Positions 3,673 through 37,807 of a DNA stretch of 38,198 nt are shown here, piece after piece. The stretch spans positions 1-38,198 of the forward strand of contig JAQVYC010000010.1 of NCBI GenBank assembly GCA_028708805.1, written 5' to 3'. The notes under the pieces were generated by a model. That model did no database searches, was not told the DNA's origin, and saw only the letters and a list, made by a program, of their open reading frames with translations. The translations under genes were made by a program, and so were the position numbers. This stretch comes from Clostridia bacterium (GTDB taxonomy: Bacteria; Bacillota; Clostridia; Christensenellales; UBA1242). The stretch's first letter is position 1; every line of letters starts with the position of its first letter.

Positions 3673-6600
3673 ATGAAAAAATTGAAAAACATAGGTTATA
3701 TTTTTTGTTTAGTGATTATTGCTCTTGTATTTAATGTTTACAATGCAAATTTAAATAACTATGTCCATGCATATAATAACTTAAATTTTGAGGTAGTTAA
3801 TTTAACTAATAAGGATTTTAATAACTCTCCTAATTCAGTGAATCTTGATTCGTATCCATACGGTTGGAGTAAATTAAAAAAATCTAGCTCGGCAACTAGC
3901 GGAATTATTAATGTAAGTGAAAATGCAAATAAATTTTCTGCTAATTGTTCAAAATATCAGTTGGAAGAAAATCAAAATCCAAAAACTATGAGTCCTACTT
4001 ATGATAGTCGTGTTTTAATGATAAATTCAAAAAATTCAGAAGGTATTGTAAATTCAACAATTCAAGGATACTCATCTAATACGATAAGTTTGGAAAAATA
4101 TTCTTTTTATGAAATCAGTGTGTTGGTTTGCACAATGGATAACGCTTATGCAAGCATTTATTTAAATGGGTTTGATAATTATGCTACTAAGCAAGCAGTT
4201 ACAGTAAATGATAATTTTAAAAACATTCGCACAGAGAATAACAGATGGGAGACCTACTCTTTTTATATTCAAACAAACTTTGAAAGCATTTCATCAAAAA
4301 TTAATCTTTATCTTGGACAATCAAGTAGCAAAGCCTCAACTGGGGTTGTGTTTTTTGATAATATTTCAATTTTGAAACTAACCGAAAGTAAATTCGCTTC
4401 CGAAGTAAGCTCGACCACTATTAAACCAGAAGTAAATAATATAATAAATATGAATATAAATTATGTTTTAGAATATGCTTCAGAAGATTATAACTTTAAT
4501 TTCGAAACAGGAACTACGGCGGATAGCTGGATAAAAAAAGGAGCATTTGATTCCACAAATACAATTGCTAATGTCTTAAACATTTCTACTCCTGAAATAA
4601 TGCAGGGTTTAAATTTGAATTATCTTGGAACAGATACAACACTAAATAATAAATATGGACTAGTTTTATCTACAACAGAAGGTTGTGTTGGATTTGCATC
4701 AAAAGATATCGCAATCAATCAGTTTGGGCTTTATAAAATTTCAGTAAATGTTAAATGTGATAATATTAATGGTAATGTTTATGTAAAGCTCGTAGAGAAT
4801 GATGATATTCTTTTAATGTATCCTGAGTATGCTGATGACGAGTTTTATAATCCAACAACAAACTCCTTGAAACTTTCTTCTAATCTTGGAGATGATTTAG
4901 TAAATAACTATTCAACATTGAGTTTCTATGTTTCAGGGCACTCTCTTTATGATTCTTCGGTTAAATTGGAGCTTTGGCTAGGTGCTGATGATGACCTATC
5001 TAGTGGCACAGTCGTTTTCGATAATATCACAGTTGAAAAATTGAATTACAATGAGTTTAAATCAGTTTCAGCTGGAAATACTAATAAGGTTATAAAACTT
5101 ACAACTATCACCTCTACCCCTTCAATTGAAAATGGCTTTTTTAACAGCGGTATAAATCAAGATATAAATACTTCATTTCCTATTCAAGCTGAACAATGGA
5201 CACAATCTGTTAAAGAAAGTTCAACTTCGAATGTTTGGGGAATTGTAAACACTAACGAAGATAAATGGAATAATAACGGTTTCGTCTTAGCAAACCCTAA
5301 AAATCCAACTATTAAAATTGGTGGAACTACTATTACAACACCAATAACCGATACAAATAATATTTTAATGATATATAACAATATTCAATCATATCAAACA
5401 ATTACAAGCCCAGAATTTAATACTGATAGCAACTCTTATTATTCTTTTGCCTTTGATTTTATGGCAATGAATTTTATTTCGAGTGGAAATTCTATTTTAA
5501 ATATTTATTTACAAGATAATGATGGCAAAATTCTTTATGAAGATTTTGATGTTTATTCTAGTGCGTGGGAAAATTATTCTATAACTATAAAAACAGAACA
5601 TTCTTCTAAAAAATTAAAGCTAATTTTGGAAGTTGGTAGTGAATCAGAACCCGCTTTTGGAATTGTTTATTTAGACAATGTTACTCTAACGAAACAAACT
5701 TTAAATGAAGAAGATTATACTGAAATAATTCAAAATAAAAATAATAATGTTTTAGACTTGTCTAATCTTGGCTTATATGTAAAGGGCAATGAGAAAAACG
5801 AATTCGGAATTTATGATGCCCTACTATTCAATGCCGAACTTGATATAGAAACCCAAGATACTCTTGCTATGGGCGGAGTTATAGATGAAGAAAACAATTT
5901 TAATATTAATTTCCCCGAAACAAATACAAACATTGTTAAAAATATGCTTGCTATATCAAATTTAGGGGTTGTTACTTATTCGTTAACTTCTAAGTCTGAT
6001 TTAAAATTAACTGCAAATTCTTATTATAAATTTAGTGTTTACATTAAAACAGAATTTACAGAAGAAGTTACAGAAGAAGCTGATGATGACGAAGATAAAA
6101 AACATAATTTTGGTGCCGAATTTACTCTTAACGGACTCAAAGATGCATCTATGACAAGTATTAAATCAAACGGTTTCAATGAATATGTAATGTATGTTTT
6201 GGCAAGCAAAGAAACAACAGTTCAAGTTAAATTTGCTTTTACTAGCGATTGCTATGCTACAACAGGAAATGCCTTTTTTGACAACTTTAAATTTGAAGAA
6301 ATTGATAAAGAACAATATGATAATGCAGTTGCTTCTGATACTGAGTTGATTTTAGCTGGCACTGATACAAGTGAAGATAATGAAGAACCAAAACCAGTTG
6401 AAGAAAACACTGGATTTGGTGCTGAAATTTGGATAGGAATTTCTACAATTATTATGACTGCTGCCATTATTCTTGCCGTTATACTTTCCTACCTTAGAAA
6501 ATTAGATTTGAAAAAATATAAAGCTAAGAAAAAAATTGTTACAACTTATAATAGAGCAACAACGGTTTCACGAGATGTTGTTATAAAAGAAGCTCAGAAC

Positions 6601-7026
6601 CGAAGAGATGCTGAAATTAAATTATTAAATGGTGATATCAAAGACCTTGAAAGTTATATCGAAAATCTTGAAGTGGATAACAAAGAAAGAATTGCAAAGC
6701 AACGAACTGAAAAGAAAATCACTAAAAAGTCTGAACGCGAATTTAAAATTTATGCTAATGCTCGTGGGAAAGCCTTAAAAGACATTGATAAAATTAAAGA
6801 AAAAATTAATAATATAAATTCACCAGAGTGGTTATTGCAACAAGAAAAATTAATAACGGCTGAGAAAGCAAAAGCCAAAAAAACAAATAATTTGAAAGAT
6901 ACTATTTTAAAGGACAAAAAAGATATTACTAAAAATGAAACTTTAAAAGAAAAAGAAGTTACTTTGGAATCTGAAACAAAAACAAATAAAGAAACAGAAA
7001 CAGAAACCAAAAACCAAAAACAATGA
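3673..7026 (+). CDS. Large secreted, membrane-anchored multidomain protein with four beta-sandwich/CBM-like repeats, a TM helix and a charged cytoplasmic tail
   Basis: Signal peptide MKKLKNIGYIFCLVIIALVFNVYNA. Four motifs: GVVFFDNISILKL, GTVVFDNITVEKL, GIVYLDNVTLTKQ, GNAFFDNFKFEEI. TM ISTIIMTAAIILAVILSYL followed by KKYKAKKK and a ~170-aa Lys/Glu-rich tail. RBS GAGGTTG. Confidence 0.8.
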   Translation: MKKLKNIGYIFCLVIIALVFNVYNANLNNYVHAYNNLNFEVVNLTNKDFNNSPNSVNLDSYPYGWSKLKKSSSATSGIINVSENANKFSANCSKYQLEENQNPKTMSPTYDSRVLMINSKNSEGIVNSTIQGYSSNTISLEKYSFYEISVLVCTMDNAYASIYLNGFDNYATKQAVTVNDNFKNIRTENNRWETYSFYIQTNFESISSKINLYLGQSSSKASTGVVFFDNISILKLTESKFASEVSSTTIKPEVNNIINMNINYVLEYASEDYNFNFETGTTADSWIKKGAFDSTNTIANVLNISTPEIMQGLNLNYLGTDTTLNNKYGLVLSTTEGCVGFASKDIAINQFGLYKISVNVKCDNINGNVYVKLVENDDILLMYPEYADDEFYNPTTNSLKLSSNLGDDLVNNYSTLSFYVSGHSLYDSSVKLELWLGADDDLSSGTVVFDNITVEKLNYNEFKSVSAGNTNKVIKLTTITSTPSIENGFFNSGINQDINTSFPIQAEQWTQSVKESSTSNVWGIVNTNEDKWNNNGFVLANPKNPTIKIGGTTITTPITDTNNILMIYNNIQSYQTITSPEFNTDSNSYYSFAFDFMAMNFISSGNSILNIYLQDNDGKILYEDFDVYSSAWENYSITIKTEHSSKKLKLILEVGSESEPAFGIVYLDNVTLTKQTLNEEDYTEIIQNKNNNVLDLSNLGLYVKGNEKNEFGIYDALLFNAELDIETQDTLAMGGVIDEENNFNINFPETNTNIVKNMLAISNLGVVTYSLTSKSDLKLTANSYYKFSVYIKTEFTEEVTEEADDDEDKKHNFGAEFTLNGLKDASMTSIKSNGFNEYVMYVLASKETTVQVKFAFTSDCYATTGNAFFDNFKFEEIDKEQYDNAVASDTELILAGTDTSEDNEEPKPVEENTGFGAEIWIGISTIIMTAAIILAVILSYLRKLDLKKYKAKKKIVTTYNRATTVSRDVVIKEAQNRRDAEIKLLNGDIKDLESYIENLEVDNKERIAKQRTEKKITKKSEREFKIYANARGKALKDIDKIKEKINNINSPEWLLQQEKLITAEKAKAKKTNNLKDTILKDKKDITKNETLKEKEVTLESETKTNKETETETKNQKQ

Positions 7027-26914: not shown

Positions 26915-27430
26915 TTATTTTTTTGATATAGCATCTAATGCAGTAACTAATCCTCTCACTGGTGCATTTAGAACACGCACTGTTCTTGTGATTGGTTCTT
27001 GCAATAAGCCCAAAAGCATTGCAATAAGAGTTTCTTTTCCTGGTAATTTTGCAAGAATTTCAACTTTATTTGCTTCAATAACTTTGCCTGATAATATACC
27101 AAATTTAATTTTCAATTTTTTGTTTTTGTTAATTGTATTTAATAATATTTTAGGAATATTCACTTCGTCTTGATTAGAAAATGCAATGCCCGTGTTTCCT
27201 TCCAAAAACTTATCGCAACCGCTTATGCCTAATTGATTTAAAGCAATTAACATTAAACGATTTTTATAAACCTTATACTCGCCACCTGCTTCACGAAATG
27301 CTTTTCTCATTTCGAAATCTTCTTGAACTGTCATTCCAACATAGTCCACGAAAGCCACAGATTTTGCAGCAGTTATTTTGGTTTTTATTTCTTCTACAAT
27401 TAATTTTTTTGCTTCTAAATTTGCGCTCAA
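26915..27430 (-). CDS. rplJ: 50S ribosomal protein L10 (TTG start)
   Basis: SANLEAKKLIVEEIKTKITAAKSVAFVDYVGMTVQEDFEMRKAFREAGGEYKVYKNRL. AGGAGG is 8 nt upstream of TTG at 27430; the longer track ORF runs into the leader. Confidence 0.95.
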   Translation of the reverse strand: MSANLEAKKLIVEEIKTKITAAKSVAFVDYVGMTVQEDFEMRKAFREAGGEYKVYKNRLMLIALNQLGISGCDKFLEGNTGIAFSNQDEVNIPKILLNTINKNKKLKIKFGILSGKVIEANKVEILAKLPGKETLIAMLLGLLQEPITRTVRVLNAPVRGLVTALDAISKK

Positions 27431-27473
27431 AACAAACCTCCTTTCGTTTTTATTGAACTTTAATTTGTGTGGT

Positions 27474-27611
27474 AAAAAAACAATATCTTCCAAAGCCGAA
27501 AAAGAATGTTGGAAAATATTGTTAAGTTTCATAAATACATCTCTCTCTCGGCAAGTAACATTTAGTTTTACGCTAATTCAAGCACTTGCTGTCTTTGAAA
27601 TCAAAGATAAT
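27474..27611 (-). promoter_or_regulatory. Ribosomal protein L10 leader with attenuator
   Basis: Minus strand AAAGACAGCAAGTGCTTGAATTAGCG...TTACTTGCCGAG (L10-leader-like), then AACAATATTTTCCAA...TTGGAAGATATTGTTTTTTT terminator (27474-27523). Confidence 0.85.
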
Positions 27612-27818: not shown

Positions 27819-27847
27819 TTGACAAATAAGCAAAACTAGTTTAATAT
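27819..27847 (+). promoter_or_regulatory. Near-consensus sigma-A-type promoter for orphan gene pair
   Basis: TTGACA - 17 nt - TAATAT, upstream of ORF at 27859. Confidence 0.7.
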
Positions 27848-27858
27848 AAGGGTGCTTA

Positions 27859-28797
27859 TTGAAGAAAAAATCAAAGCACTTAGAGGTATTAATGGAAAAT
27901 GACAATGTTGTTGATGTCGCAAAACAAATAAATGACACAACCTCGAATAGAATAAAACAAGAATTTTGTTTAATTATTCCTGATTTATTTAAAAAAATCC
28001 CAGATTATCAGCAAATTGAAAAAATAATTAAAAATCTTAATTCTTACAAAAACAAAAAATGCTTTTCTCATACCAGCAGAACAATTGATATTTATAAAAT
28101 TGACTCAGTATACGGAAATATTATCGTTTCTTCTAATCAGCCTATTGAAGGCACAAATAAAGAAAAAACAAAATACAGAGATGTTGGTCAGTTTAGAATT
28201 GATTATCTGTCAATTAATAAGCCTAAGATTATTTCACCAACGACTATTTCAATTGAATTAAACTTAAAAATATATGATGAAATCTTGTTGGATAAGCTAG
28301 GTTCTTATACCAGCTTATTAAAATTAGAAATATTTAAAAAGCCTAATGCTATTAAGAGCTATAATGACATTGTAAACACAAATGCTATTGTTAGGGTAAC
28401 AAAAGAAATGTCTTCTGATAAATCTTTTATTTATGAATACGGTTTAGGTGATGAGTTTAATAATGATGAACTAGATTTTGAAGATGACAGTTTTGAAGAT
28501 TATTCAGAAAGTCCTTTAAGCTTTTCAGAAATTGAAGAAGAAAACCTTGCAAGTGGTTTAGATTCTACAAAGATTATGTATTATGACGGTAAAGGGCAAT
28601 TGCTTGAAACAAGTAATAAAAAACATCAAGCAATTCAAATTCTAGGCTTTAAAAAACCTGATTTTGTTAAACAGATAGAAGAAATGATTGATGACTGGGA
28701 TGATGTGTATCAAGAAACATTAGCGGGAAACGCTTCTTATTATAAAGACCTGTATAAAAATTCAGATAGAAGAGATTCAAGAGATAGTCAAAGATAA
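27859..28797 (+). CDS. Hypothetical protein (orphan pair member 1)
   Basis: 312 aa, TTG start with weak SD (AAGGGTG). C-terminal NAIVRVT...FIYEYGL...IMYYDGKGQLLE...QILGFKKP resembles the next gene. Confidence 0.75.
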   Translation: MKKKSKHLEVLMENDNVVDVAKQINDTTSNRIKQEFCLIIPDLFKKIPDYQQIEKIIKNLNSYKNKKCFSHTSRTIDIYKIDSVYGNIIVSSNQPIEGTNKEKTKYRDVGQFRIDYLSINKPKIISPTTISIELNLKIYDEILLDKLGSYTSLLKLEIFKKPNAIKSYNDIVNTNAIVRVTKEMSSDKSFIYEYGLGDEFNNDELDFEDDSFEDYSESPLSFSEIEEENLASGLDSTKIMYYDGKGQLLETSNKKHQAIQILGFKKPDFVKQIEEMIDDWDDVYQETLAGNASYYKDLYKNSDRRDSRDSQR

Positions 28798-28833
28798 TGA
28801 AAATCTAAATTTATTGTAAAAAGGAAAAGCAAA

Positions 28834-29652
28834 ATGGGAAACAAAAGAAAGTTATATTCAAAATTGTTATCACTAACTAATTTATTTAAGCTAGAATCTG
28901 AAAAAGATAATGTTGATTTAATTATTAATTCTAAATTTCTTCCATCGTGGATAACAACTAATCCAAGTTTCGAAGGGGTTGAAAAGGTTTTAAACTCGGG
29001 GCATCCTTGCGGTTGGCAAAAAACTAAATTTGGAGAAAACGATATAGTTTATTCCGGTAAGGGCTATATAAAATGTAAACCAGAAATTGCAATGCCTGAG
29101 GAAAATTATTTAAATGAAAATGTTGAAGATTCTTTGGCTAGTTATAACTTTACAATACAAGCCTCAAAAAAAACTGGTGAAGTGTTGTTAGCTAACTTCA
29201 AGTTCGATATTTTAGATGAAGACTTAGATATGGCGTTATGTTCGTATCCTAAAAACATTCTTTTTGAAAAATTCAACAAACCAAAAACCGCTCAACTTAT
29301 AGATAAAATGCTAGATGAGAACACAAATTATATTTTAGATGTGAACCAAATAATTCGTGTTACTACTTATGATTCGGTTTATTGTGAATATGACCTTTTA
29401 TCATACAATAATGATAACAGAGTTAGTGTTAAAATTGATAAAGCTTATGTTTTATATTATGACAACAAAGGTAGATTTTTTAGCCCCTTTGAAGACGATT
29501 ATACATCCTTTGAAATTATAGGGCAAATGAAAACACCAGCGGCAGAAGTTGCTGAGAATACACTTAAAATTTGGGGTGTTGATACTTTGTTCACACAAAC
29601 ACAAAAACAAAAACCACAGTATTCACAAGAATATGAAACAATGTTTCAATAA
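28834..29652 (+). CDS. Hypothetical protein (orphan pair member 2)
   Basis: 272 aa, SD AAGGA. C-terminal NQIIRVT...VYCEYDLL...VLYYDNKGRFFS...EIIGQMKTP. Confidence 0.8.
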   Translation: MGNKRKLYSKLLSLTNLFKLESEKDNVDLIINSKFLPSWITTNPSFEGVEKVLNSGHPCGWQKTKFGENDIVYSGKGYIKCKPEIAMPEENYLNENVEDSLASYNFTIQASKKTGEVLLANFKFDILDEDLDMALCSYPKNILFEKFNKPKTAQLIDKMLDENTNYILDVNQIIRVTTYDSVYCEYDLLSYNNDNRVSVKIDKAYVLYYDNKGRFFSPFEDDYTSFEIIGQMKTPAAEVAENTLKIWGVDTLFTQTQKQKPQYSQEYETMFQ

Positions 29653-29679
29653 AAATTAATTTCAAACAAAAGATTATAT

Positions 29680-29709
29680 ACGGTACAGGTTTAATTGTAC
29701 CGTTTTTTT
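29680..29709 (+). terminator. Intrinsic terminator downstream of the orphan pair
   Basis: ACGGTACA-ggtttaat-TGTACCGT followed by TTTTTT. Confidence 0.9.
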
Positions 29710-29726
29710 ATTATTATATAATATAT

Positions 29727-30368
29727 CTAATCAGCTAAAACATTATATTTTTCAGCAACTTCATCTAAATTTATTCTACTTATTGAAATCTCATAGGCTG
29801 TTCTTGTTATAATACTACCATTCTCTAATTTCTTTTGGTAATCCCTACTTTGAATTCTTCCAACAATATTAATCTTTGAACCTATTTTCGCATCTTTGAT
29901 ATATCTTGCATTTCTGCCCCAAGCAATACAAGGCAAATAATCCGATTTATTATAAGCACGGTTAACAGCCACTAAAATATCGCAAATTTCTCGGTTGAAA
30001 GGTGTTGTTCTATACACTGGGTCTTTGCAAACAAAACCAGAAATTTCTACAATATTAGGATTCATAGTTTTATCGGAATTAATAATCTCTCGTGCGAACA
30101 CACTGAGAACAAGTTTGCTTTTACTTCCATTAATTTTGTTGAAACTTCTGAACTGTCCTTTTATCCCTATTTCTTGGCCTACAACAATATTTTTTAGCAT
30201 CTTTTCAGAAATTATCACAGGCAAAATGTCCATATGCTCAGATAATCTCGGCACAGAAAGTTTGACTTCATAAAAGCCTTCACCGAAGGTTTCGTGGCTG
30301 AAAATCGGTTCTTCTAGAATAGTTCCTATTAAAAAAGTTTTGTTGTTGTTTAATAATTCGTATTTCAT
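29727..30368 (-). CDS. Single-stranded DNA-binding-like protein with two OB-fold repeats
   Basis: Segment 1 FLIGTILEEPIFSHETFGEGFYEVKLSVPRLS...DILPVIIS; segment 2 VEISGFVCKDPVYRTTPFNREICDILVAVNRAYNKSDYLPCIAWGRNARYI...SKINIVGRIQSRDYQKK. Confidence 0.8.
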   Translation of the reverse strand: MKYELLNNNKTFLIGTILEEPIFSHETFGEGFYEVKLSVPRLSEHMDILPVIISEKMLKNIVVGQEIGIKGQFRSFNKINGSKSKLVLSVFAREIINSDKTMNPNIVEISGFVCKDPVYRTTPFNREICDILVAVNRAYNKSDYLPCIAWGRNARYIKDAKIGSKINIVGRIQSRDYQKKLENGSIITRTAYEISISRINLDEVAEKYNVLAD

Positions 30369-36388: not shown

Positions 36389-37807
36389 TTACATTTGCAA
36401 GTCAAACTCATCATATTCTTTTAAGATTTTATTTGAAATATTTTGACAATTATAATAATTGATACCTCCAATAATCATTTTTTTTCGTTTACCTGATTTA
36501 ACATAAATTGTTTTTAACTCATTTTCAAAAAACAATTTTAACTCATAATTAGCTAGTTCAGTTTTATTTATATAAATAAATTTTTCTTTTAAAATTAAAA
36601 ACTTTTTAAACATAATTTCGTATATTTTAAGCGAACTCAAAGCCTTTTTTTTATGCAATTTAATTAAATCATAAAAAGTTATTTCTTTATTAAGTTTAAA
36701 AAAGTCATCATTTTTAATTGTGTTTGTGTTAATAATGCCTTGGTATTTATTTTTTATTCCTTCTAAAATTATCTGAGACGGAAGATATTTATTAAAGTAA
36801 AAATTTAATTTTTTATCGTTACTTCTAATTTTTAAATTAAACATTCTTTCCTGTTTTTTCAAAATAGAATTTTTAATATATTCATCACTTAAATTTAAAA
36901 CATTTTCAGTAATATCATTTCCAAAATAAATACAGTAAAAATTTTCTGAATTTTTTTCAATTTTTATTTCAAGTATGCAACTTAATTCATAACTGTTCGA
37001 ATTTTTTATTTTTGATAATTTAAAATTTTTTATTTTTGCTTTTGAATAAAAATGCCATTCAAAATTATTTATTAAACTTTTAATTTCATAATGGTTTCTT
37101 TTTTTTTGAAAATTTAGATAATCAAATTTATTAATATCAATAATTTTTATAAATTTTAGTTTGAAATATTTTACTTCTAATTCACTTTTTACATTAATAA
37201 AAAAATAATGTCCATTATAATAAGTCTGGTTTATTTCTAGGCAAATCTTTCTTTCTGTAAATTTTCTTTTTATGCAAAAATTCTCAAAGGTTATTTCCTC
37301 GTTGAATTTTCTAAGCGGGACAATTTCATCTGTCTTCTTTAAAACAATCGACTGTTTTCTTTCATAATTTATGTTTAAATTTATTAAATGCTCTTTCAAA
37401 TTTTTTGCTATATCTACAACATTAAAAAATTTTGCTTCATCTTTAAAAAATGCTTTATACTGATTGATATCATTTTCTGTGTTAAAAAAAACAATTAAGT
37501 TGAAATTCTGTATTTGTTTTGCCAACCACAAATTTTTCACATAGTTCATTGAAAGGCTGTCAAAATATTCTAAAAAAATGGGCTTATTTAATTTGATTCC
37601 CGTGGGCTCAATTAAACTTATATAATTTTTTTCTGTATAAGTACTAGGCTGATTATTTCTTAATTTATCTAAAATTTTTGATACTCCAATACAGGAAAAT
37701 TTACTTTCATTTGTTTTTTTCTTAAAGAAAAAATCATATTTCAATAACATACTTATTAGAAATAACAAACTGAAAATACAAATACTTAAATAAATTAAAA
37801 ATAACAT
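36389..37807 (-). CDS. Hypothetical membrane-anchored protein
   Basis: 472 aa; N-terminal TM LFLIYLSICIFSLLFLISMLLKY; Lys/Phe/Ile/Asn-rich; no confident family. Confidence 0.75.
   Translation of the reverse strand: MLFLIYLSICIFSLLFLISMLLKYDFFFKKKTNESKFSCIGVSKILDKLRNNQPSTYTEKNYISLIEPTGIKLNKPIFLEYFDSLSMNYVKNLWLAKQIQNFNLIVFFNTENDINQYKAFFKDEAKFFNVVDIAKNLKEHLINLNINYERKQSIVLKKTDEIVPLRKFNEEITFENFCIKRKFTERKICLEINQTYYNGHYFFINVKSELEVKYFKLKFIKIIDINKFDYLNFQKKRNHYEIKSLINNFEWHFYSKAKIKNFKLSKIKNSNSYELSCILEIKIEKNSENFYCIYFGNDITENVLNLSDEYIKNSILKKQERMFNLKIRSNDKKLNFYFNKYLPSQIILEGIKNKYQGIINTNTIKNDDFFKLNKEITFYDLIKLHKKKALSSLKIYEIMFKKFLILKEKFIYINKTELANYELKLFFENELKTIYVKSGKRKKMIIGGINYYNCQNISNKILKEYDEFDLQM

Follow-up and report, generated by a model that had tools for sequence, protein, structure and literature searches.

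What are two adjacent genes without recognisable relatives doing at one fixed place in a genome of only 926 kb: encoding the subunits of a complex, persisting as redundant duplicates, travelling as mobile cargo, or hiding descent from a known family? Lineage-specific orphan genes are common in bacteria, and the locus considered here offers one such pair together with a relative in a second species. The stretch of DNA analysed (the window) comprises bases 1-38198 of a 41,172-base contig. The pair is flanked by rplJ (26915-27532, - strand) and, on its other side, by an ssb-like gene (29727-30368, - strand) that is convergent with the second gene; it consists of the following features:

27819-27847, + strand: promoter of the pair, TTGACA-17-TAATAT, the sole exact match in the 38-kb window
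27892-28797, + strand: ORF A, 301 aa from ATG 27892; listed by ORF-calling from TTG 27859, 312 aa
28834-29652, + strand: ORF B, 272 aa, pI 4.9, with an AAGGAA-type ribosome-binding site
29680-29711, + strand: intrinsic terminator (9-bp stem, T-run) separating B from the convergent ssb-like gene

As called (A, 27859-28797; B, 28834-29652), the two frames are open for 312 and 272 codons and are separated by a gap of 36 nt. In 200 random sequences of first-order composition and of the window's length, no stop-free frame exceeded 178 aa, so both lie beyond chance; G+C content by codon position in A and B (third position lowest) also matches the pattern of the neighbouring genes. Like B, ORF A encodes an acidic protein (pI 4.9).

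Among eight genomes of the genus, one besides the window's own carries a tandem pair, namely congener G097 (MAG Clostridia bacterium STD2_135, JAQUUD010000003.1, locus L046), where rplJ, a first gene, a second gene and the ssb-like gene follow one another in the same order and orientation as in the window. In a third congener (G026), the ssb-like gene and rplJ are 448 bp apart, with no ORF of at least 50 aa between them; the remaining congeners with both genes have them on separate contigs and yielded no copy of the pair. Credible matches in 309 genomes of the family were confined to the window's genome and G097, an order sample (396 genomes) and a class sample (391 genomes) yielded nothing except the window's own pair, and no further family member appeared in about 1,080 other genomes. 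Genome contigs searched with B gave no match, and with the congener's protein they gave the congener alone. We found no published study of this locus. The pair is restricted to two species of one genus, at a fixed chromosomal site, and both genes occur together in both genomes that have them, a co-occurrence that the preliminary description had proposed to check.

Several weak matches were rejected as chance on the basis of neighbourhood and frame: one antisense to aspS (G035), one in a phage portal-like ORF (G062), one antisense to unrelated ORFs (G195), and two in large repeat surface proteins (G212 and G026). A further weak match in G097 (C52), which has internal stops and lies inside a ribosomal operon, was likewise rejected as chance.

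The comparison with the congener bears directly on how the pair is transcribed and where A begins. When up to one mismatch is allowed, about 0.94 chance matches to TTGACA-17-TAATAT are expected in the window; in the congener, identical hexamers with identical spacing (L046 7091-7119) lie 41 nt ahead of the first gene's ATG. In the window, the terminator, a hairpin at 29680-29703 with its T-run, has a folding energy of -11.9 kcal/mol (z -3.9), and the congener's pair is likewise closed by a strong hairpin and T-run (L046 8876-8916). The preliminary description had proposed a near-consensus promoter, two ORFs 36 bp apart and a strong terminator, together forming a self-contained unit; each of these elements is present, and with its own promoter and terminator the pair stands as an independent transcription unit. 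Just 11 nt separate the -10 box from TTG 27859 downstream of it, so the message would be nearly leaderless if translation started there. ATG 27892, by comparison, is 44 nt from the -10 box and is preceded by AGAGG, and the congener's first gene starts 41 nt from its -10 box and is preceded by AAGGAGG. Because of the upstream AGAGG and the near-equal promoter distance in the relative, we prefer ATG 27892, and A is probably a protein of 301 residues.

The surroundings of the pair hold some features of their own. Upstream of rplJ, a match to the Rfam L10 leader (RF00557; 27468-27616, - strand) scores 42.7 bits (E 1.1e-5) against a gathering score of 44, and a perfect TTGACA-17-TATAAT promoter (27657-27629, - strand) precedes rplJ; leader and promoter are both conserved in congeners. 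In congener G055, ORFs upstream of rplJ (L037:3536-4352, parts of which are masked) resemble antisense shadows of rRNA, unlike the window. The ssb-like protein (213 aa) matches Pfam SSB over residues 105-200 only, its N-terminal half being conserved in the genus and without assignment, and a second, more distant SSB-like match is present elsewhere in four congeners. Further away, an ORF of 472 aa at 36389-37807 (- strand) has a hydrophobic stretch at its N-terminus and matches nothing in Pfam. A surface-type protein of 1117 aa, encoded at 3673-7026 (+ strand), begins like a signal peptide and has a C-terminal membrane segment and, after it, a tail rich in Lys and Glu; its only domain match, to MAM, is sub-threshold.

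A and B are homologous to each other. BLASTP aligns them over the C-terminal half (E 9e-5), and the whole-protein comparison gives Z 6.3. When the halves are compared directly, the C-halves reach Z 8.3 and the N-halves only Z 0.7; 217 of 1000 shuffles attain the score of the N-halves, and none of 1000 that of the C-halves. The C-halves are in fact alike in every pairwise comparison (0/1000 shuffles reach the score). The congener's second protein (L046:8001-8774, 258 aa) matches both B (E 5e-15) and A (E 3e-13) over nearly the full length, and its N-half matches the N-halves of A (1/1000 shuffles) and of B (0/1000). Because this protein links both N-halves, A and B are full-length paralogs whose N-halves have drifted furthest (i.e., a lineage-specific tandem paralog pair). 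The earlier proposal of paralogs with related C-termini is thereby borne out, whereas the accompanying claim that the N-terminal halves differ is right only in that A and B show no direct similarity there; by way of the congener's protein, these halves too are homologous.

The pair in STD2_135 shares with that of the window the rplJ/ssb-like site, orientation, promoter hexamers and spacing, terminator and full-length homology, but the proteins are only 24-31% identical, the acidic insertion in the C-half of A is absent from the other three copies, and the first gene of STD2_135 is truncated by a frame break. The frame of this gene (L046:7161-8000) ends after a YDKNG motif near the 3' end, and a C-terminal remnant, AIECVGISTPK, is found about 90 nt beyond the break in another frame; it should be noted that the coverage of the contig is about 5.5x and that the break could be an assembly error. 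The range of 24-31% identity holds both between and within the two species, whereas the flanking proteins of the same species are 75-85% identical (rplJ 75.6%, rplL 84.9%, ssb-like 82.2%, deacetylase 81.4%, lepA 83.7%), which means that the pair evolves very fast. A tree of the four sequences prefers, though not significantly, the grouping of first with first and second with second (AU 0.77, against 0.31 and 0.18 for the other topologies). The duplication is thus probably older than the split of the two species, a dating that the tree favours but does not prove.

The preliminary description had recognised no family for either protein, and the searches agree: nothing above noise was found for the pair in Pfam, NCBIfam, PHROGs, PADLOC or the PDB, or in the phage, plasmid (searched with B) and IMG/VR collections considered below, and neither protein was assigned to a characterised family by HMM. 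The best matches to curated families fall far under their cut-offs (MCEL_GT_NTPase, 15.1 of 27 bits; OTCace, 11.8 of 29.4; NF003207, 16.6 of 250; phrog_3604, E 0.029; best PADLOC match, 0.0066), and the pair belongs to none of them. Also as first described, neither protein has a TM-like stretch, hydropathy over 19 residues peaking at 0.73. Among solved structures, a low sequence E-value was obtained only for the designed WD40-like propellers Ika8/Ika4 (PDB 6g6o, 6g6q; E 3e-9 for the whole chain), in a profile match of the pair's C-half motif. We rejected this match as a repeat-sum artefact: the score sums identical artificial repeats, of which the best single stretch reaches about 0.5 and none is significant.

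Structure models were obtained for B (pTM 0.64, mean pLDDT 59) and for the congener's second protein (pTM 0.49, mean pLDDT 54). Secondary-structure elements run in almost identical order in the two, H-H-EEEE-H-E-EE-H, with helices first, then four strands, a short helix, a single strand, two more strands and, at the C-terminus, a last helix. This agreement is not independent, as both models were built from the same four sequences, and it comes at low confidence. Foldseek searches of both models against the PDB and viral models returned nothing at E <= 0.001 and no shared top match. Judging from the models, the proteins may be soluble, with a fold of helices and antiparallel sheet that has no significant match in these collections. 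Unrelated C-terminal folds, which would speak against the paralogy, were not seen, a comparison that covers B and the congener's second protein.

What can be stated securely is that the tandem pair is confined to one genus, diverges fast and occupies a fixed site as a transcription unit of its own. To account for it, we tentatively favour an accessory operon of diverged, specialised duplicates, plausibly forming one heteromeric complex through their C-halves. One promoter would drive two tandemly duplicated, fast-diverging genes, whose products would be soluble, cytosolic, about 30-35 kDa in size and alike in fold, with a helical N-terminus, an antiparallel sheet and a helix at the C-terminus, an architecture presumed for A as well. 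With a duplication before the species split, the first-gene and second-gene positions would each have been kept as a specialised subunit; the two products may bind each other, or a common partner, via the conserved C-half, and the N-halves may carry the faster-changing specificity. In favour of this are the same site, promoter element, gene order and terminator in two congeners and the rplJ-ssb-like interval without the pair in a third; the full-length homology by way of L046:8001-8774, with C-half similarity throughout; and the preferred but not significant quartet tree and the similar order of elements in the models. Against it stand the alternative tree topologies, which are not rejected, and the low confidence of the structures. 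If the break in the congener's first gene is real and no assembly error, it suggests that this species can do without an intact first subunit, and it counts against an obligate heteromer. A bolder version, in which two specialised paralogous subunits with a fold unlike solved structures form a heteromer under strong diversifying pressure, as in a conflict-type function, found only in one genus of small-genome Clostridia, strikes us as improbable.

The same broken copy is what would be expected if the genes were redundant, that is, if a fast-evolving accessory gene had been duplicated in tandem, perhaps independently in each species, with products that act alone or as a homomer and a second copy that is expendable. 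This explanation, which we consider somewhat unlikely, also draws on the fact that in the congener each copy has the other as its closest relative (31% identity, score 207) and on the independent-duplication topology, which is not rejected (AU 0.31), but two copies in like order are present in both genomes, and the favoured tree groups them by position rather than by species. The empty site in one congener, the patchy distribution within the genus and the very fast divergence beside well-conserved neighbours could instead point to recently gained phage, plasmid or genomic-island genes that landed between rplJ and ssb and have a part in conflict, for instance in defence or immunity.

Such an origin is unlikely in our judgement: A and B have no relative in 50,697 phage records, B has none in 72,556 plasmid records, pattern scans of IMG/VR viral contigs found none, and no defence family was matched. 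There is no adjoining integrase or transposase and no convincing pair of flanking repeats, only short A+T-rich matches; of the signs of mobile cargo looked for, the empty site in a congener is the only one seen. Because the site is the same in both species, the genes are not a recent gain in either. The very high rate of change also means that homologs outside the genus could escape detection, and the pair might then be the highly diverged descendants of a known family, invisible to profile methods since only four sequences exist. The clear order of secondary structure in the models speaks for this, but the failure of Foldseek to find anything at E <= 0.001 among the PDB and viral models, with matches that differ between the two models, makes it a still more doubtful proposition. 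Specialised subunits of an accessory operon stay our candidate explanation.

Though real, the pair is a rather ordinary instance of lineage-specific genes that evolve fast, with no relatives outside its lineage in the genome samples and the phage, plasmid (B) and viral-contig collections searched. With orphan (ORFan) genes in general it shares the lack of relatives beyond one genus, fast divergence and the absence of a known domain; what sets it apart is that two diverged genes stand in tandem at a fixed site, with a conserved promoter and terminator of their own. Its practical value is modest until its function is known. A bacterium with a genome of about 1 Mb would be expected to lose its accessory genes, and a promoter-driven pair that diverges far more quickly than the genes around it, yet has been retained at the same place in two species, marks a function under unusual selection. 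Because a congener with an empty site exists, the pair also offers a clean small system for the origin and duplication of orphan genes.
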